A DNA stretch of 64,000 bases from Chroogloeocystis siderophila 5.2 s.c.1. Its GTDB lineage: Bacteria; Cyanobacteriota; Cyanobacteriia; Cyanobacteriales; Chroococcidiopsidaceae. A program made the position numbers and the translations under genes. Positions 42,680 through 52,019 of this stretch are shown here, piece by piece; position 1 is the stretch's first letter; the number at the start of each line of letters is the position of its first letter. Below the pieces are notes generated by a model. The model ran no database searches, was not told the DNA's origin, and worked only from the letters and a program-made list of their open reading frames with translations. The stretch is taken from the NCBI RefSeq assembly GCF_001904655.1, contig NZ_MRCC01000007.1, positions 1 to 64,000 on the forward strand, given 5' to 3'.

Positions 42680-42720
42680 AGCTATTGTAGTGAATTTTGC
42701 TGCGCTACGGTAGCTTTTTT
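42680..42720 (+). terminator. Intrinsic terminator of psbN
   Basis: AGCTATTGTAGTG (42680-42692) pairs with CGCTACGGTAGCT (42703-42715), 13 bp with G-U pairs, around AATTTTGCTG and followed by six T. It overlaps the stop codon of the convergent mannosidase gene (42705-42707), so that gene's last codons and stop are part of the hairpin. Confidence 0.85.
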
Positions 42721-45700
42721 ACTGTAAATGAGCAAATCTTCCAAGGTGAAATTTGGTAAGTTGGCTCCAATAATTTATTGTTAGTGGTTCGTTCTAACAA
42801 ATCAACAGTTTCCTCCAAGGCGAGATCTAAATCACTGTTAAAAGATAACTGTGCCGCTTCTCCGTTACATTCGTAGCAGCGTAAAATCCATTTTTGAGAA
42901 TTGTCTTCTGACTGTTTAAACGCCGTCAAAATCAGGTTATCTGCTGATAAATCAAGAAAACAGCCTACTGGTAGTAAGTATTTTGAAACGCGATCACCTT
43001 GTGACACTAACACCACCTGTAGCGGAGAATTTAACTCATATCCGCGTCGTACTGTCTGGGCTTGTTGCCAATTACCTTGATGCGGATAAATCGCATACGT
43101 GAATTGATGATTTCCGCGATCTGCGTTTGGGTTTGGCCATTCTGCACCACGCAGTAACGTTAAGCGTAATTGATGAGGCTGGCTATCGTAGCCGTATTTG
43201 CAATCATTTAGTAAACTCACCCCATAATCATCCGTACTTAAATCTGCCCAGTGTAGCGCTGGTACTTCCCATTTAGCTTGTTCTGCTGGTGTTTCTGGCT
43301 TAGTAGTCCGCTGAATTGCACCGCAAGGAATTTCATAGGTTGCATAATCAGCTTCAAGGTTGAAAGGAAAAGCCGCTTTTACTAAAACATGACGCGATCG
43401 CCAGTTGACAGTAGTCTCTATTTTCAACAACGGTGAACCTGCTTGCAGCACATAATCTTGACAAAATTCTGATTCTCCGAGTTGACGCACAACGCGAATG
43501 CGACTTTGAATGATGCCTTGCTCTAGCCACTGAATTGATACAAGTTGCGCTGGTGGTAAAGGATGCTGTGCATAGTTGGGGTCAATGTTCCATGCATCCC
43601 AGTATTGACCACTATCGGTAAATCCTTGCAGTTGATTACCTCCGTCGGAATGCAATATCTCGCGATCGCACGTCTTATCAAAAACACTCTTCAAATTTCC
43701 GTTTTCACAATCAACAATGACCCGTAAAAATTCATTTTCTAGCGTCCCATCTTCAGTTTTTTTTCTATTATCAGAGTAATACTCAGCACCTGATATAATT
43801 TTTATATTATTGCCTTTTTCTTGCTCATTTTTTGTTGTATTATTTAATACATCGGTAGAAGGAGCTATAAACTTAAGTGCTACTAACCAAAAAACACGAT
43901 AACCTGTAGCAGGAATATCCTTAGCTCTAAATAATAGTGATCGAGCAGCAAGAATTTGGCAAGGTAGCTGATTTCCGTCTAAGTCGCAAACAAGCCAGTC
44001 TTGTGCATCAGGTAATGTCACGCTCACAACCTCAGAACGTTGCCAGTTGAGCGAATTAAACACAACTAAAGGTTGAGCGTCAGGATGCGGAGGTGGCGGT
44101 AATTTAATTTGAGATGCGATCGCACTTAACGACTGCTGAGTAATTTCTGCGGTAACTTGTTCAACTTCTTCCCAAGTTAGGTTAACCTCGGCGTAGACTT
44201 CAGGAATTGAAGAACCAGGGAGAATATCGTGAAATTGGTTAAATAAAACTTTCTTCCAAGCAGCTTCTAATTGAGCTTGAGGATAAACGAAGCCAGTCGC
44301 GATATTAGCTAGTGCGGCAAACAATTCTGCTTGATATAGTAATCCTTCACAACGGCGATTCCAGCGCTTTTGATCCGCGTGTGTGGTGTAACAACCGCGA
44401 TGAAATTCGAGATAGAGTTCATCTTGCCAGATAGGGAGGGGTGAGGAGCGAGGAGAGTGGAGCGAGGGGCAAAAGGTGTCTTCTTCAATTTGAGAACTAT
44501 TGCGGATTTGCTGAAGATATTTTTCTGCTGTGGTAAACCTCAGTTGGGGAAAGAAAGCAGAATTCTGCCATCTTTGGGCGACTTCTAACATATCGCGAGT
44601 CGGACCACCACCGTGATCACCGACTCCAGGAAGCCAGAGTGAAGATTTGAAACTTGTTTGCTGTTCCCACTTGCAGGCATAAGTCGCCATTTTGATCGGG
44701 TCAATACCTTCACCAATCGGCGCAGACATGAGACTTAATATTGTGCTTCCATCAGGCGATCGCCACCAAAAAGCACCATAAGGAAACTTTGTTGTATCGT
44801 TCCAGAGTAACTTTTGCGTGACAAAATACTCAATTCCGGCTTGCTGAAAAAACTGCGGTAACGTAGCGCAAAAACCAAAACTATCAGGTAGCCACGCTAC
44901 TGTAGAAATTGCACCAAATTTGTCTAAAACATAGCGTTGACCGTACAATAGCTGACGGACAATCGATTCACCACTGACTAAATTTAGTTCAGGTTCTACC
45001 CACAATCCGCCTACTATTTCCCAGCGCCCAGCATTTACTTGTTGTTGAATTGCAGCGAATAAATCAGGACGATGTTCTTCGATCCAAGCATAAAGCGCAG
45101 GTGTAGAATGACAAAATATTAATTCTGGAAAATCTTTTTGGAGATTGAGAACCGAAGTAAATGTCCGTTGTGCGGCTTTCCAAGTATCACTAATTGCCCA
45201 TAACCAAGCTAAATCAAGGTGTGCATGACCGAGAAGTTGAATTTGGCGTTGCTTAATCTCTTGTGCTAAGTATTGCACCGAAGAACGAACGGTAAGCAGT
45301 GATTCTGTAAATGCGTGCTGATCAGGTAGAATTGACCAATCAATTTCTGCAAGCGCTATCGCGAGGATTGATAATTTTTCAGGATAGAAGGTTTCTAAGT
45401 AACGTTGTAAAACCGCGAACTCGTCAGCAATAAAACCTGGTTCAGGATAGGCGGTGTCGGTAGATTCATAAACGCAAAGCGATCGCACTAAAGCCCCAGC
45501 ATCGTGATTTGGACTGACTAAGCGTAAAGTTACTGTAATTTCTTCGCCTGGTGTGACTGCTGAACTGAGCAATACGCGCGTTGAACAATCAAATAAGTCG
45601 CCTTCCTGGACAAGTTGACCATTAATATAAATTTGTGCAGCTTCCGCCCACCAGGTAAGCGCTAAGCGCAAACTTAAACCTGCAATTGGATACCCTGATA

Positions 45701-45920
45701 AATCATTGGGAATGACAAATTTTTGGGTTAACCACAGTACTTTTTGCCCCGCTGACCAAGCAATGTGTTCTCTAGCATTAAGTTTTACTTCAGCTTGTGG
45801 TGTTACTTGCGATTCATCTAAAATTCGCCAACGTGCTTGAACATTGACTTGAGTACAACCACGAAGTTTCTCAATAAGAGAAATTGAGTTGCTATAAGTT
45901 TGAGTCGCTGTAGAGGTCAT
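42705..45920 (-). CDS. Alpha-mannosidase, glycoside hydrolase family 38
   Basis: 1071 residues from MTSTATQTYS (45920); a longer start at 46013 is less likely. The catalytic region has QLLGHAHLDLAWLWAISDTW with metal-binding His and Asp, YVLDKFGAI, and the nucleophile-bearing WLPDSFGFCATLPQFF, then VTQKLLWND and GDHGGGPTRD. The all-beta C-terminal half fits GH38. It would cleave alpha-mannosides, probably in the cytosol as no signal peptide is seen. About 12 residues near 510-520 (CPSLHSPRSSPLPI) derive from a GAGGGGTGAGG repeat. It is convergent with psbN; the next gene starts divergently 130 bases away. Confidence 0.92.
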   Translation of the reverse strand: MTSTATQTYSNSISLIEKLRGCTQVNVQARWRILDESQVTPQAEVKLNAREHIAWSAGQKVLWLTQKFVIPNDLSGYPIAGLSLRLALTWWAEAAQIYINGQLVQEGDLFDCSTRVLLSSAVTPGEEITVTLRLVSPNHDAGALVRSLCVYESTDTAYPEPGFIADEFAVLQRYLETFYPEKLSILAIALAEIDWSILPDQHAFTESLLTVRSSVQYLAQEIKQRQIQLLGHAHLDLAWLWAISDTWKAAQRTFTSVLNLQKDFPELIFCHSTPALYAWIEEHRPDLFAAIQQQVNAGRWEIVGGLWVEPELNLVSGESIVRQLLYGQRYVLDKFGAISTVAWLPDSFGFCATLPQFFQQAGIEYFVTQKLLWNDTTKFPYGAFWWRSPDGSTILSLMSAPIGEGIDPIKMATYACKWEQQTSFKSSLWLPGVGDHGGGPTRDMLEVAQRWQNSAFFPQLRFTTAEKYLQQIRNSSQIEEDTFCPSLHSPRSSPLPIWQDELYLEFHRGCYTTHADQKRWNRRCEGLLYQAELFAALANIATGFVYPQAQLEAAWKKVLFNQFHDILPGSSIPEVYAEVNLTWEEVEQVTAEITQQSLSAIASQIKLPPPPHPDAQPLVVFNSLNWQRSEVVSVTLPDAQDWLVCDLDGNQLPCQILAARSLLFRAKDIPATGYRVFWLVALKFIAPSTDVLNNTTKNEQEKGNNIKIISGAEYYSDNRKKTEDGTLENEFLRVIVDCENGNLKSVFDKTCDREILHSDGGNQLQGFTDSGQYWDAWNIDPNYAQHPLPPAQLVSIQWLEQGIIQSRIRVVRQLGESEFCQDYVLQAGSPLLKIETTVNWRSRHVLVKAAFPFNLEADYATYEIPCGAIQRTTKPETPAEQAKWEVPALHWADLSTDDYGVSLLNDCKYGYDSQPHQLRLTLLRGAEWPNPNADRGNHQFTYAIYPHQGNWQQAQTVRRGYELNSPLQVVLVSQGDRVSKYLLPVGCFLDLSADNLILTAFKQSEDNSQKWILRCYECNGEAAQLSFNSDLDLALEETVDLLERTTNNKLLEPTYQISPWKICSFTVKKLP
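44434..44470. repeat. GAGGGGTGAGG repeat inside the mannosidase gene
   Basis: GGGAGGGGTGAGGAGCGAGG and AGAGTGGAGCGAGGGGC read in frame on the minus strand as a Ser/Pro/Leu stretch in the middle of the mannosidase. It resembles the copies in the FAD oxidoreductase and hybrid kinase genes. Confidence 0.65.
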
Positions 45921-46049
45921 ATTTTCGATAAAATCAGATTGTTTAATGAGTAAGTAACAATTAACGTAACGACAAGGCTGGTCACTGGTAATTGGAAAAA
46001 TACTTATTAACAATTACCCATCACCCATTACCCAAACCTAATCCATATT

Positions 46050-47534
46050 ATGTCTTCGGCTTCTGGTCGCTATCAAAGCAAACTCTTCAATTTTATTCAC
46101 CAGCAATCGCGGCGGTTTACACAACAATGCGATCGCGCTTTTCGCCAAATTCAATTTGCCACCAGTTGGATAGCACCAGCCGTCTTGTATCCCTTCTACG
46201 CTCTATTTCAGTCAACACGGAAGCTTAAATTTTCTCCAAAGCCAGCGTCACCACAACTACAAGCACATCAGCCAGAGTCTTCTTTGCATTCCAGCGCAGA
46301 TACGCCAATTCAGCAAGTATTGCAGCTATTTGAAACACCTGCTGAAGAAATGACGCCGATTCAGCCAGATGAGCAACCCCAATCAAATATCTTTGCTTGG
46401 TTCTCGCCGCAAATCATTCACTTAGCCCAACAGACTAAAGAATTATTCCACCCAAATCGCCAAGATACAAAAGTTTCACCTGTAGAGTGGATACCTATTG
46501 CTGCACAACTAAAGAATAATCGACGAGTGATTCGTGGAATTGCGACTGGGCTTGCAAATCGTAACTTAGTCTTAGTCACAACTGAAAATGAAATTCTTGA
46601 TGTTTTTACGCCACAACAGCAGGAACAACTACAAGCCAAGATTGAGGGAGAAGTCGCAACCTACTGGCGCTGTCAGCGTTTAGCGTATGCTTCTCAAATG
46701 TCAACACAACTTAACGGTGAGACAAATCCAAGTAGTTTACTTACTCAAGCAACACCGCTGAATTTACTTGATCGCGTTCTTGCCGAAATCGAATCCCATT
46801 CTTTCGCACTCACTCAATATTGGCAAAATCAATTAAATAGTAGAACTATATTAGCAGATAAAACAAATCAAAACAATATTGAATCGGATAATTCTACAAG
46901 TCAAATACGAATTCAAGCTTTAATTTGGGCAGCAATTGATTTCTTTTTTGGAAATGGTAGTAACACAAAACTAGGAAAAGACACGTCAGCAACAAAATCT
47001 TTGCAATTCTCCAGTACGCAACAAAAAAGAATACCACATCGCCCTGTGTCTCAATTACCTAGTGTTTCATTACCTACCATTGAAGATCCTTGGTTATCGC
47101 TGAGTGACTTATTCAAAGAAGTAGAATCAGAAGCCCAAGTACAAACAATAGCATTTACACAAACATCAAATAAAGTTCTTCCTGAGAATAAAACAAGTGA
47201 TTCTCTCCGCAGAAAATTAATCAACGGTTGGCAAAGATTCAAGCCAAAAATAAATGCAGTGACTGCGTTAGTAAAACTAAGACGAACAAGCGCGATCGCT
47301 TCTGTAACTTCTGAACCATCACCGCCAACTAATCCCGCACAAATTAACCCTACTTCTGAGTGGATCGATGTTTCGGCGATCGCTGTGGGTTATGTTAAAC
47401 ATCCTTTAGAGCAAGTCCTCGAATGGTTAGACCGCGCTATGCTATGGCTAGAAAAATTGTTATTCAAATTTTGGCAGTGGTTGCAGCGATTTGATATCAG
47501 AAAGAAGGCTCAAAGGTCAGAGATCAAGTACTGA
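46050..47534 (+). CDS. Unrecognised 494-residue protein
   Basis: 494 residues, ATG at 46050, divergent to the mannosidase. The N-terminus (SGRYQSKLFNFIHQQSRRFTQ) is basic and amphipathic. The part around 155-220 (RVIRGIATGLANRNLVLVTT) looks like a folded globular core; the rest is Ser/Thr/Gln-rich linker, with a final amphipathic, Trp/Leu-rich segment (DRAMLWLEKLLFKFWQWLQ) near 465-485 that may bind membranes. No enzymatic motif is visible. The last nine residues (KKAQRSEIKY) fall in a GGTCAGAGATCA repeat that also supplies the stop. I give no function. Confidence 0.75.
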   Translation: MSSASGRYQSKLFNFIHQQSRRFTQQCDRAFRQIQFATSWIAPAVLYPFYALFQSTRKLKFSPKPASPQLQAHQPESSLHSSADTPIQQVLQLFETPAEEMTPIQPDEQPQSNIFAWFSPQIIHLAQQTKELFHPNRQDTKVSPVEWIPIAAQLKNNRRVIRGIATGLANRNLVLVTTENEILDVFTPQQQEQLQAKIEGEVATYWRCQRLAYASQMSTQLNGETNPSSLLTQATPLNLLDRVLAEIESHSFALTQYWQNQLNSRTILADKTNQNNIESDNSTSQIRIQALIWAAIDFFFGNGSNTKLGKDTSATKSLQFSSTQQKRIPHRPVSQLPSVSLPTIEDPWLSLSDLFKEVESEAQVQTIAFTQTSNKVLPENKTSDSLRRKLINGWQRFKPKINAVTALVKLRRTSAIASVTSEPSPPTNPAQINPTSEWIDVSAIAVGYVKHPLEQVLEWLDRAMLWLEKLLFKFWQWLQRFDIRKKAQRSEIKY

Positions 47535-47580
47535 ACATTTTGGTGTCTCTAAATTCTCTCATCTGACTCCTGACCTCTTT
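47511..47580. repeat. Inverted pair of GGTCAGAGATCAGG repeats
   Basis: CAAAGGTCAGAGATCAAG (47511-47528) covers the end and stop of the 494-residue gene. ACTCCTGACCTC on the other orientation (about 47565-47578) lies at the end of the antiporter gene. The two could fold together as a crude terminator between convergent genes. Confidence 0.6.
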
Positions 47581-47584
47581 TAAT

Positions 47585-49201
47585 TTAGCTATCGACTGTA
47601 ATAACCGGAATCGGACTCATTTCTAAAACGGCTTGTGAGACAGAACCAAGAATGACTTCTTCCCAAGTGCGGTGTCCCCGTTTACCGATAACAATATCTG
47701 TGACTTGACGTGCTTCGGCGACTTGAACGATCGCTTCTGGAACCGCACCAGATTGCGTGAGAAACTCATAGCGAATATCTGCAAGAAGTTGATTTGCTTT
47801 GCTTTTTAGTTCATCTAAGGCACGTTTATCTCCTAAGTTATCAACGTACAACACAATTACTTCACCGTTGCTGCGTCGTGATAAATCAGCCGCTTTGCGG
47901 AGGACTTGAATTGCCAGTGGAGAAGTATCTATTGCAGCTAAAAACACCGGACGACCTGTAACCGCAACTTTGGTCGGATCGACTTCGCCTTTTTCTAAAA
48001 GTTTGGGTGCGAACACTTGCGTTGCCCATGCACCAATGGGAGCCGTTGTCAAGATCGAAAGCGCGGCGATCGCCAAAATTATTTCGCCACCTTCAATTCC
48101 TGCGGCTAAAGGTAATGCACCAATTGCGGCTTGTACTGTCGCCTTTGCCATATTTCCTGGAAGTAAGAACACCTTTTCTTTCCAAGTCCAGTTACTGCCT
48201 AAGGTAGAGAAATACCAACCAATTCCACGACCAATAACTAAACTAAGTGTTAAAAGTAACAACCCAGGTAGCAAGATATTTCCTAACACCTGAAGCTGAA
48301 TAGTTGCTCCTAGTAATACAAATAAGACAATCTCTGCTATTGTCCACAATATGTCAAATCCACCGCGAATCAAACGTGCTAGGGGTGCATCAAATTCAAT
48401 TAAAAAGAACCCCATTGCCATCACAGCAAGATAACCAGAATAGTAGGGAAAGACTTCCGTAAAAAGCACAAGAAATAATGCTGCACCTGCTGCAATAATC
48501 ATGTCTTGAACAATATTGCGCGTCCAGTTTTGTTTAACCAGTACTAGCACCAATAAGCGAGCAAAAAGAAAACCTGCTGCTAGTCCTAAAACAATTTCTA
48601 GAACTACCTGAAACGGTAAAAGTTGTAAAGGAGTTAATGTAATAATCCCAAAAAGTGTGATTGCTTCCTCTCCCTGCTGCCCTAAAAAGTTAAGTAATAA
48701 GCTAAATACGAGCAAAAGTAAAACATCAGACAGCGCACTTCCGGTCAAGATTGCATCGGGTATTCCTTTAGCGACTCCCCAACCCAAGCTTTTCAGCCGC
48801 AACATTCCTGGTACAATAACTGCGGGTGATTCGGCTCCGACAACACAGCCTAACAGTAAGCCAGTCAAAAAATCAAAGTTAAATATAAACATCGACAAGA
48901 AAGCAACAACGACTGCTTCTGTTGACGCGGGGAGAAACCCTAATCTTAATGCTACGGTTCCTTGTTGTGCTAGCTTTTCTCGGTCTAACCCTAGTCCTGC
49001 CTTCATCAAGATAATCGTGACTGCAACTAACCGCAAGTCATCAGCTGCACCTATAACTTCAGGACTAATAAAATCTGCGAATTGCGGACCTATGGCAATG
49101 CCAACCAAAATCATACCAATTAGGGGTGGTGCTCCTAATCGTCGGGCAAGTTGTCCCGCAAAAAAGCCCATGAATAAAATCCACAACGCGCTGGCTAACA
49201 C
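47585..49201 (-). CDS. Cation/proton antiporter with fused UspA domain
   Basis: 538 residues from the GTG at 49201, chosen because AAGGAG precedes it by six bases; a TTG at 49216 is also in frame. Residues about 1-380 form 11-12 membrane helices of the CPA2/KefB type (AGQLARRLGAPPLIGMILVG, then GCVVGAESPAVIVPGML). The C-terminal 140 residues are a universal stress domain (RPVFLAAIDTSPLAIQVLRK) ending with the ATP-binding GKRGHRTWEEVILGSVSQ pattern. A fluoride riboswitch lies 90-143 bases upstream, so it is likely made when fluoride rises; it would exchange monovalent cations for protons, and the UspA part may gate it. Confidence 0.92.
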   Translation of the reverse strand: MLASALWILFMGFFAGQLARRLGAPPLIGMILVGIAIGPQFADFISPEVIGAADDLRLVAVTIILMKAGLGLDREKLAQQGTVALRLGFLPASTEAVVVAFLSMFIFNFDFLTGLLLGCVVGAESPAVIVPGMLRLKSLGWGVAKGIPDAILTGSALSDVLLLLVFSLLLNFLGQQGEEAITLFGIITLTPLQLLPFQVVLEIVLGLAAGFLFARLLVLVLVKQNWTRNIVQDMIIAAGAALFLVLFTEVFPYYSGYLAVMAMGFFLIEFDAPLARLIRGGFDILWTIAEIVLFVLLGATIQLQVLGNILLPGLLLLTLSLVIGRGIGWYFSTLGSNWTWKEKVFLLPGNMAKATVQAAIGALPLAAGIEGGEIILAIAALSILTTAPIGAWATQVFAPKLLEKGEVDPTKVAVTGRPVFLAAIDTSPLAIQVLRKAADLSRRSNGEVIVLYVDNLGDKRALDELKSKANQLLADIRYEFLTQSGAVPEAIVQVAEARQVTDIVIGKRGHRTWEEVILGSVSQAVLEMSPIPVITVDS

Positions 49202-49234
49202 TTCTTTCTCCTTCAAAAAAATACAACGATGATG

Positions 49235-49344
49235 TTGCCAGGAGTAAGAGAAGCGTTAACAGCAGTAGCCCTACCCTCTGGCAAGCCAGACTAGTAGGAG
49301 CCATCAGCCTGATCAATAGGCGGTTAGGGTGAGCTCCATCACCC
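49235..49344 (-). promoter_or_regulatory. Fluoride riboswitch (crcB motif) and its expression platform
   Basis: The aptamer spans 49291-49344. On the minus strand it reads GGGTGATGGAGCTCACCC, then TAACC, GCCTATTGATCAGGC and TGATGGCTCCTACTAG. P1 is GGGTGA/TCACCC and the second stem GCCT/AGGC. The loop GGAGC (49337-49333) pairs with GCTCC (49301-49297) as the known pseudoknot. These match the crcB-motif consensus closely. Downstream, CCTAC can pair with GTAGG (blocking the pseudoknot), and TTGCCAG can pair either within TCTGGCTTGCCAGA or with CTGGCAA (49241-49235), as expected of an expression platform. The ORF on the minus strand that crosses this region is spurious. Confidence 0.93.
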
Positions 49345-49385
49345 AGTTCAGAAGCAAGAATAACACAATTTTGTTCGCACTTCAC

Positions 49386-51629
49386 CTAAAACGGCGATCG
49401 CACGTCAGAACCTGAGAAAGGATCTGTACCACCTACCCAGTTAAAATCACTGATTCTCAAAGTCAGCGAACCCAACTCTAATGCTGGATTATAGCGAAGG
49501 ACAACGCCATAAGTACGGCGACTGTATTCGAGAAAATAGTCAGTACTCAGTTCTTGACCTGTATCGACATTAATCGAAGTCTGCACGCCAAGGCGAAACG
49601 GTCCATAAATTTGCTGCGTGATTCCGGCGGACAAAATTCGCGTATCAGCGGTGCGATCAAATAAAAACGGCGATGAACCGCCCAAGAGCCCTTGAGAATA
49701 CGCAAGATTAAAGCCGGTATAGTCTAAATACGGTCGCGAGAAATTACCAAACTGCCCTTGAATGCCAATTGTTCCGGTTAACAAGGTTTGTTGGTCGCCA
49801 TTACTATAAAAACTCGCATCACCGCGCACGCCACCGTATACTTGCACGTAAGGAACGATCGGCGTAGGTGTATAACGTAATCCTTGGGTTGCGGTTGCGG
49901 GTAAAGGAGTTCCTTGCCAAAGCAAGAATCCACGACTGAGTGCTGCACTACCTTGCAAGCGACCTAATGATATGCGATTGTTGTTCCGATCCGGTTCGAG
50001 TAAATCAATGCGATCGCTATCAGCAGTAATATATTGCGCCCCCGCTTGATAGCTAAGATTAAATCCAGTGTCTCCGATGGGAATGACTGGCGAAGTCACA
50101 ATTCCACCGATACTACTACGTACTGTCTGATAGCCCAACGAACCGTTATACAAGCGATCGCGATAACTATACTCTACGGTTAAGCCATGCGGTCGTTCCA
50201 GAAGATTCACGGGGGTTCGCAGCCGCAAACTAGCGCGTAAGTTGTCTGCAATATCCGTGAATCCTGGAAGTACTGCTAAGCCTGTCAGCGTTGTTTGTGG
50301 TCCTAAAGTCGCATCTAAGCTACCGCGTACGCCAAAGAGATCGGGGCTAAAAATATTACCGCCGCTTTCGGTTATCGCTTGTTGCACAAAAACCTGTGGT
50401 GTGACACTAACGCGCACTGCTTCGCTATCAATAACATTGAAACTGCGTTCAACAAATAGTCCCCCGCGATCCTCGCTATCGTAACCCAAGTTAACTAATC
50501 CTGGCGTCACTTGCCGTTGGCGGCGGTCAATCACTTGTTCGTTGCGCGGAATTGGGATAGAGAAACCTTGGTCAAAAACTAAGCGTTGTCCGGTTGTTCT
50601 AATGCGATCGCGTGAGGGTGTCTCGCGTGTCAATGTTACTGTATCCGCGCGTAACTCTAACTCTGGAGGCGAGAACGGATCGTTGGTGATGCTAACATTT
50701 GTTGCTTGCCAACCTTGAGGATCGAAGTTAATTGTGTCTGCTTCAACGCGCAAGCGGCGGATCTCGCCTCCTTGTTGTGGTAAAGGTACGCCACCAAATC
50801 CACGATCTGAACCTGCGGTAATTCCTACACCACCAGGGCTTGTGACTTGTTGTAGCGGTTGATTGGCGGTGATGCGATCGCTGAGTGGTCGTGGCGCGAT
50901 TCCCCCAGCGGTGACATCTGTCGGTAAACTTGGTGTAAAATCTGCTCTGGCGGTGGGAATAAAAACTTCGCCACTCGCATTCAGTACATTTCCTGTATCT
51001 TGAACCAAGTTGTAGGTAAAGCGATCGCCGCGTATCACTTGTTGTCCGCGTGTCAGTGCAACATTTCCTTCGCCGACGCCGATGAGATTTTCTAAATTCA
51101 CCTGAAGGCGATCCGCATCTAACACCGTGCCATCATACCGCAGCAAAACATCACCTTCTGCTGTGACAATCTGCCGCTGAGCGTCGTATTCTTGATAATT
51201 TGAATTCAACTCGATGATGCGATCGCCACCTGTTGATGCTGGTGCAGGTTGACTTGGTGCCGGCAGTGGCGTTTGCACTGGTTCTGGTGCTGCTGGCGCT
51301 GGTGCACTAAAATCTAGTGTTCTTAAGTTATTATTACTATTTTCTGGTGCTTGAGCAATTGTCTCACTGGCAAATTTTTTTAACTTCGCGATCATGTGAT
51401 CACGATTTTCAACGTCACTAACTGGTAACGGTGGAATTGAACTAGAGGAAGCTTCTGGCGCAGTATTATTTTGCTCAACTCGATAGCCAATCGAAACAGC
51501 ACCGCCCAAAAGTGTAGCGTCTTTGGCTGCGGCTAATTGCGATCGCACCGATGATGAAGTTGAAGAAATTGCCGTAGACGACAAATGGACAACATGATGC
51601 GGTTCAGGGGGCGGTGCTGCGTGAGTCAT
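49386..51629 (-). CDS. LptD-like outer-membrane assembly protein (DUF3769)
   Basis: 747 residues. An N-terminal low-complexity region with no clear signal peptide, then an OstA-like domain near 155-245 (IIELNSNYQEYDAQRQIVTAEGDVLLRYDG ... IGVGEGNVALTRGQQVIRGDRF) and a beta-barrel-like C-terminal half with many alternating polar/hydrophobic strands, ending TLRISDFNWVGGTD. DUF3769 is the cyanobacterial relative of LptD, which inserts lipopolysaccharide in the outer membrane. psbI lies upstream on the same strand by 122 bases. The fluoride riboswitch starts 42 bases after its stop. Confidence 0.9.
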   Translation of the reverse strand: MTHAAPPPEPHHVVHLSSTAISSTSSSVRSQLAAAKDATLLGGAVSIGYRVEQNNTAPEASSSSIPPLPVSDVENRDHMIAKLKKFASETIAQAPENSNNNLRTLDFSAPAPAAPEPVQTPLPAPSQPAPASTGGDRIIELNSNYQEYDAQRQIVTAEGDVLLRYDGTVLDADRLQVNLENLIGVGEGNVALTRGQQVIRGDRFTYNLVQDTGNVLNASGEVFIPTARADFTPSLPTDVTAGGIAPRPLSDRITANQPLQQVTSPGGVGITAGSDRGFGGVPLPQQGGEIRRLRVEADTINFDPQGWQATNVSITNDPFSPPELELRADTVTLTRETPSRDRIRTTGQRLVFDQGFSIPIPRNEQVIDRRQRQVTPGLVNLGYDSEDRGGLFVERSFNVIDSEAVRVSVTPQVFVQQAITESGGNIFSPDLFGVRGSLDATLGPQTTLTGLAVLPGFTDIADNLRASLRLRTPVNLLERPHGLTVEYSYRDRLYNGSLGYQTVRSSIGGIVTSPVIPIGDTGFNLSYQAGAQYITADSDRIDLLEPDRNNNRISLGRLQGSAALSRGFLLWQGTPLPATATQGLRYTPTPIVPYVQVYGGVRGDASFYSNGDQQTLLTGTIGIQGQFGNFSRPYLDYTGFNLAYSQGLLGGSSPFLFDRTADTRILSAGITQQIYGPFRLGVQTSINVDTGQELSTDYFLEYSRRTYGVVLRYNPALELGSLTLRISDFNWVGGTDPFSGSDVRSPF

Positions 51630-51750
51630 ATTTGAGTCAAAATAAGCAAACAGACAGCCCAGTGCATAACCTCAAGCGCACTTTTAACCCGTCAGCATTA
51701 AATAAATTCAACTGAACTTGTGCCTTTGAGTCTACGGCATCTTGTTGTGG

Positions 51751-51867
51751 TTATTCGAGATCCCGCCGACCAGGGTTACGTGCTGGGTCATTGGACAAAA
51801 AGCCAAAGACAAATATACCAACGAAGAAGGTAACAACTATATAGACAACAATTTTAAGAGTCAACAT
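51751..51867 (-). CDS. psbI: Photosystem II reaction centre protein PsbI
   Basis: 38 residues, read directly from the sequence: [20 protein letters not shown] and [18 protein letters not shown]. It matches PsbI in length and sequence, with one membrane helix (about 4-24) and the conserved DPARNPGR tail. It helps stabilise the D1/D2 core of photosystem II. GGAG lies a few bases before the ATG. The LptD-like gene follows on the same strand, 122 bases away, so they may share a transcript. Confidence 0.97.
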
Positions 51868-52019
51868 AAAACTATCTCCAAGTATGAGAAGCTAAAGGAA
51901 ACTGCAATGCGCAGATAGTCCTTTTCATCATACCCAAATGTCGTCCCTTTTTTTGGTTGATATTGTTTGACTACCTGCAAATTCTGACGTGAGTTTGATG
52001 TTAAGGTTTCACTATAGCA

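Follow-up and report, generated by a model that had tools for sequence, protein, structure and literature searches.

The window, a stretch of 64,000 nucleotides from the beginning of contig NZ_MRCC01000007.1 of the cyanobacterium Chroogloeocystis siderophila 5.2 s.c.1, carries on its minus strand a fluoride riboswitch followed by a gene encoding a cation:proton antiporter with a C-terminal universal stress protein (Usp) domain. The features of the locus, in the order of transcription, are as follows.

49386..51629, minus strand: DUF3769 (LptD-like) gene (PF12600, 663 bits)
49357..49365, minus strand: probable extended -10 promoter element TGTTATTCT, directly 5' of the aptamer
49288..49352, minus strand: fluoride riboswitch aptamer (RF01734; 57.2 bits, E 2.9e-14)
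49343-49328, minus strand: aptamer stem GGTGATGGAGCTCACC, from the sequence
within 49322-49307, minus strand: second aptamer stem, from the sequence
49337-49333 with 49301-49297, minus strand: aptamer pseudoknot, GGAGC with GCTCC, read from the sequence
47585..49201, minus strand: CPA2/NHA-like cation:proton antiporter with C-terminal Usp domain, 538 aa (PF00999, 94 bits; PF00582, 65 bits)
48035..49165, minus strand: Na_H_Exchanger membrane domain (PF00999)
47594..47941, minus strand: Usp domain with the nucleotide-binding motif G-2x-G-9x-GS, GKRGHRTWEEVILGS (PF00582, 1.6e-17)

When positions 46000-52000 were compared with Rfam by cmscan, RF01734 (Fluoride) was the single match, located at 49352..49288 on the minus strand, covering the full model (1-64) with 57.2 bits (gathering cut-off 34); it is also the only RF01734 match in the 5.0-Mb genome. 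This bears out the preliminary description, which had assigned the RNA to the crcB motif, and its elements were all found as described there: both stems (by alignment) and, by sequence, the core AACCGCC/GGCTGATG and the pseudoknot GGAGC/GCTCC. The span then proposed, 49235-49344, loses 8 nt of the aptamer 5' end and takes in about 53 nt of the expression platform. The aptamer lies in the 5' leader of a gene on the same strand, its end being separated by 86 nt from the GTG start. Given this likeness to the crcB motif (full-length match, core, both stems, pseudoknot and a position before a resistance-type gene), the window RNA would be expected to bind fluoride and to change gene expression as a result.

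Motifs of the TGTTATTCT type are also visible in near relatives, and among 88 loci 40% have a -10-like hexamer (at least 5 of 6 positions) just 5' of the aptamer, compared with 8% at control positions; since the element adjoins the aptamer, the transcript would have the aptamer at its 5' end. The DUF3769 gene, which stops 33 nt before the aptamer, is a neighbour outside the module. The window also contains a GH38 alpha-mannosidase gene (42705-46013), divergent from a gene for a 494-aa protein (46050-47534) with no Pfam match.

The antiporter gene starts with the GTG at 49201, preceded by the Shine-Dalgarno sequence AAGGAG; the listed open reading frame begins at a TTG further upstream, and the orthologs open at a conserved MLxS. 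The matches to PF00999 and PF00582 agree with the earlier reading of a CPA2-type antiporter with a C-terminal stress domain. Among solved structures the nearest by sequence is NHA2/SLC9B2 (E 7e-32), followed, for the membrane part, by MjNhaP1 and PaNhaP, and NHA2 is also the best PDB fold match of the AlphaFold model (pLDDT 76). NHA2 relies on the pair Asp277-Asp278 together with an Arg-Glu pair and a lysine in its core (PMC8850199). Alignment to NHA2 and to the orthologs places S158-D159 at the site of the Asp-Asp pair, so that the protein is NHA-like and not a canonical NHA; with TIGR00932 (CPA2 subfamily) it scores 32.8 bits against a curated cut-off of 238. The GAxSPAVxVP motif, the core Asp and the positions of the Glu-Arg pair and of the Lys are retained, and E95, R325 and K353 are invariant across the cyanobacterial antiporter family. 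The family differs from NHA2, apart from the Ser-Asp, in an additional invariant Glu124 within GAESPAVIVP and in the Usp domain, which is absent from the matched NHA2 chains. The KefC-type K+/H+ antiporters share with it the CPA2 fold, a soluble nucleotide-binding C-terminal regulator and a single acidic residue at the ion-site pair; however, the regulator here is Usp and not RCK/KTN, and the KefC fold match is weaker than that of NHA2. The G2xG9xG(S/T) motif of universal stress proteins is present in the Usp domain, which may have a nucleotide-sensing role. Of the fluoride-exporter families, neither PF02537 nor PF00654 matched the protein. The fluoride-riboswitch operon of Enterobacter cloacae FRM also includes uspA, but there the gene stands by itself, and a fusion with an antiporter was not reported (PMC5533749).

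A four-segment leader

The leader is a conserved four-segment switch, in which co-varying strands either bury the ribosome site (OFF) or leave it accessible (ON). Its segments in the window are listed below.

49294..49302, minus strand: segment 1, aptamer 3' strand GGCTCCTAC, common to the pseudoknot and the OFF hairpin
49277..49290, minus strand: inner hairpin TCTGG-CTTG-CCAGA of the OFF hairpin (cognate versus non-cognate z -6.5)
49267..49274, minus strand: segment 2, anti-aptamer GTAGGGCT, pairing with segment 1 (OFF) or segment 3 (ON)
49235..49247, minus strand: segment 3, TTACTCCTGGCAA, pairing with TTGCCAGAGGGTAGG at 49284-49270 (ON hairpin)
49194..49214, minus strand: segment 4, Shine-Dalgarno AAGGAG (49213-49208) and GTG (49201-49199), buried in the OFF fold (MFE leader fold)

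The distance from the aptamer to the start codon is about 85-110 nt in most loci, and each of the 58 non-redundant leaders has GTAG 18-23 nt 3' of the aptamer core. The cognate pairing of the anti-aptamer amounts to -10.1 kcal/mol, compared with -4.6 kcal/mol for shuffled strands. RNAalifold gave no consensus on a MAFFT alignment of the leaders, in which registers slip, and tests of cognate against non-cognate duplexes were used in its place. Cognate strands paired better than strands swapped between loci for segments 1 and 2 (z -3.2), the inner helix of their hairpin (-6.5), segments 2 and 3 (-12.8) and segments 3 and 4 (-9.8), the z-values being descriptive only, as the permutations ignore the relatedness of the loci. 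The alternative pairings CCTAC/GTAGG and TTGCCAG/CTGGCAA, pointed out previously, both exist and co-vary in relatives.

When the window leader ends before the ribosome-binding site it folds as the 1:2 hairpin, and with segment 1 withheld, a state that bound fluoride would bring about, as the 2:3 hairpin. In the OFF fold the ribosome site is taken up by segment 3 and its 5' neighbour (49257-49241). The co-varying structures that bury this site and those that free it exclude one another, but an opening of the complete leader at equilibrium was not reproduced: there the 3:4 helix buries the Shine-Dalgarno sequence and the start codon irrespective of whether segment 1 is blocked, so the ON state would have to be set during transcription. 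In the scheme that we propose, in cells free of fluoride the aptamer 3' strand would pair with the anti-aptamer GUAGGGCU, so that UACUCC of segment 3 could base-pair with the ribosome site and keep translation OFF. With fluoride bound, the pseudoknotted aptamer would retain its 3' strand, the anti-aptamer would pair with UACUCC as transcription proceeds, and the Shine-Dalgarno sequence and start codon would open for synthesis of the antiporter-Usp protein.

A terminator platform was rejected, since a scan of 49150-49500 revealed no terminator-like site in the window leader, which points to a control of the antiporter gene that is probably translational and of the ON type. Termination, as in the crcB riboswitch of Bacillus cereus, could make use of the T-run TGTATTTTTTTG located in the window after segment 3, just 5' of the Shine-Dalgarno sequence; however, this run is not kept in near relatives, the strands pairing with the ribosome site being conserved instead, and together with the outcome of the scan this makes such a mechanism very improbable. 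The preliminary description spoke of a switch working on the transcript, which is likely wrong in emphasis if termination was meant. Several other cyanobacteria have this platform in front of crcB and CLC-F as well (loci L018, L021, L038, L026, and L027). Translational fluoride riboswitches are known from Burkholderia pseudomallei and P. syringae, while the published covariation model has, unlike the platform described here, an overlapping terminator (PMC13273304).

Distribution of the antiporter and of fluoride exporters

The sample consisted of 292 genomes across the phylum, with a photosynthetic subset of 136 genomes encoding PSII proteins. The aptamer was present in 35 of the 292, of which 26 fall within the photosynthetic subset, and in 21 of these 26 an intact ortholog of the antiporter gene lies directly 3' of it; one more has an antiporter remnant, and one an ortholog carrying an internal deletion. 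The target had been called unusual, which is an overstatement, since the fluoride riboswitches of photosynthetic cyanobacteria are most often found before just this antiporter. A similar pattern is seen in near relatives, and by a strict pattern the aptamer is located 5' of at least 47 of the 80 nearest orthologs from named genomes, spanning Gloeocapsopsis, Nostoc, Microcoleus, Scytonema, Pseudanabaena, Gloeomargaritales, and others. The pairing of riboswitch and antiporter gene is not new in kind. Na+/H+ antiporters are the second commonest class of fluoride-riboswitch genes (PMC11139923), in line with the earlier remark that fluoride riboswitches precede antiporters, and K+ transport was noted with the motif in 2010 (PMC2864571). 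In the literature collection searched, no paper on the cyanobacterial riboswitch/antiporter-Usp module was found.

In a member of the phylum outside the photosynthetic set (G016, locus L030) a fluoride aptamer precedes a different, shorter antiporter-like protein of 385 aa, which blastp at 1e-3 does not match to the protein of the window. The ortholog from Calothrix rhizosoleniae SC01 (L134, 4001-5743) has three in-frame stops, and no aptamer was found upstream by the pattern used. A record titled as a Methylobacter MAG (L176) contains a cyanobacterial-type antiporter locus with aptamer remains, and the bin is therefore probably contaminated.

CrcB (PF02537), CLC-F and the antiporter were mapped on the same genomes, the exporters being recognised by sequence family only. 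Among the 136 photosynthetic genomes the antiporter is complementary in distribution to the fluoride exporters: it occurs in 25 of the 29 genomes without CrcB and CLC-F, compared with 23 of the 107 with an exporter (Fisher 2e-10), the remaining genomes having neither (4) or an exporter only (84). The negative association holds without the picocyanobacteria-like family f25 (p=6e-7), after collapsing to genera (median p=1e-5), in within-family permutation (p=5e-5) and in permutation within genome-size classes (0 of 20000). It was replicated in 36 further genomes, with the antiporter in 6 of the 7 that lack an exporter and in 4 of the 29 that have one (p=7e-4). In 11 sampled genomes with no match to CrcB or CLC-F the antiporter is the sole fluoride-riboswitch gene; in a partial search, in which not every CLC matched the motifs, none of their CLC homologs had the CLC-F signature GNNL/GREGT/GEVTP (PMC11139923). 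Synechococcus elongatus, a named control genome, likewise has an RF01734 match and none to PF02537. Twenty-seven orthologs, most of them checked, have no riboswitch and are exporter-poor to the same degree as the riboswitch-bearing ones, so the replacement pattern is independent of the switch. One of the four genomes with neither (G289; L067, about 4060-3000, minus strand) has a riboswitch, with the aptamer variant CTCCTCC for CTCCTAC, and an antiporter gene in which an in-frame internal deletion takes out the ion-site region and leaves the Usp domain.

In other cyanobacteria Fluc (CrcB) and CLC-F, which belong to protein families unrelated to the antiporter, are found behind the same riboswitch-platform cassette, sometimes in one operon with it. 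Operons of the order riboswitch, antiporter, exporter occur with CLC-F and with crcB; the antiporter is followed by CLC-F in 17 loci (some of them remnants) and by crcB in 8, counts that mix random and antiporter-selected loci. Remnants of CLC-F (L036/L116, L113, L130, and L159) and of crcB (L016 and L161) lie 3' of intact antiporter genes, and, reciprocally, antiporter remnants were found before an intact CLC-F gene (L029) and in a genome with crcB elsewhere (L015/G303). Decay of either partner is what redundancy between antiporter and exporter would leave. At two loci (L019 and L021) a small conserved gene (about 107-136 aa), which presumably resembles DUF190, lies 3' of a riboswitch-controlled crcB.

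The genome of the window itself has both the antiporter and a tandem crcB pair, the latter on another contig (C3). Of the aptamer before this pair no more than the 3' half is present (GGCTGATGGCTCCTAC; L046, about 3271-3250, minus strand), while in the sister genome G292 (L020) a complete aptamer, with its 5' half, stands at the same place before crcB. The crcB switch of the window's genome thus looks decayed, and the antiporter gene is the only one behind an intact fluoride riboswitch.

Possible role of the antiporter in fluoride resistance

The aptamer, the gene, the conserved co-varying platform, the complementary distribution and the reciprocal gene decay, all established computationally, are best accommodated by a fluoride-induced resistance module conserved in cyanobacteria, in which a translational switch governs an antiporter that gives resistance without a dedicated exporter; we hold this to be a fairly probable interpretation. 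The protein would most likely exchange a cation for protons and so set the pH and the ion balance of the cytoplasm under a load of HF. Resistance would then be achieved with no dedicated F- exporter, and for this reason the antiporter would tend to replace CrcB and CLC-F, probably standing in for an exporter in the cells that have none. Less in keeping with this are the genome of the window, which has the antiporter and a crcB pair, the 23 genomes that retain antiporter and exporter, the 27 orthologs lacking a riboswitch and the equilibrium fold of the complete leader, in which the ribosome-binding site stays blocked.

Two other roles can be considered. The antiporter may serve ordinary accessory pH homeostasis, expelling protons brought in by HF, its scarcity beside exporters reflecting lineage history only. 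Such is the published explanation for riboswitch-associated Na+/H+ antiporters (PMC11139923), and some operons do encode the antiporter together with an exporter; on the other hand, the negative association persists in the within-family, genus-collapsed and size-matched tests and in the replication, and, from weak-acid chemistry, a higher internal pH in a cell with no exporter would raise F- trapping. This explanation appears rather unlikely, and the earlier proposal that the antiporter offsets proton entry with HF is incomplete where an accessory beside an exporter is meant, because many antiporter genomes have no recognised exporter. Still less likely, and in our opinion doubtful, is that the antiporter-Usp protein moves fluoride itself, which would add to Fluc and CLC-F a third, unrelated family of fluoride exporters in bacteria, one that replaces both in a large part of the cyanobacteria. 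The complementary distribution, the 11 genomes described above, the reciprocal decay within shared operons and the altered ion site, with Ser-Asp for Asp-Asp and the invariant Glu124, would agree with it, but the NHA fold, D159, the positions of the E95-R325 pair and Lys353 are those of cation/proton exchangers. To our knowledge, no anion-selective member of the CPA2/NHA-like family has been described.

The conserved leader offers a complete model, with co-varying strands, of a fluoride switch that is probably translational, published covariation models covering terminators. Both known fluoride exporters are missing from about one fifth of the photosynthetic cyanobacteria sampled (29 of 136), yet 11 of these 29 carry a fluoride riboswitch whose target is the antiporter. 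This poses a testable question: whether a cation/proton antiporter with a Usp tail can make cells that lack an exporter resistant to fluoride, and whether it would do this by movement of fluoride or by control of pH.
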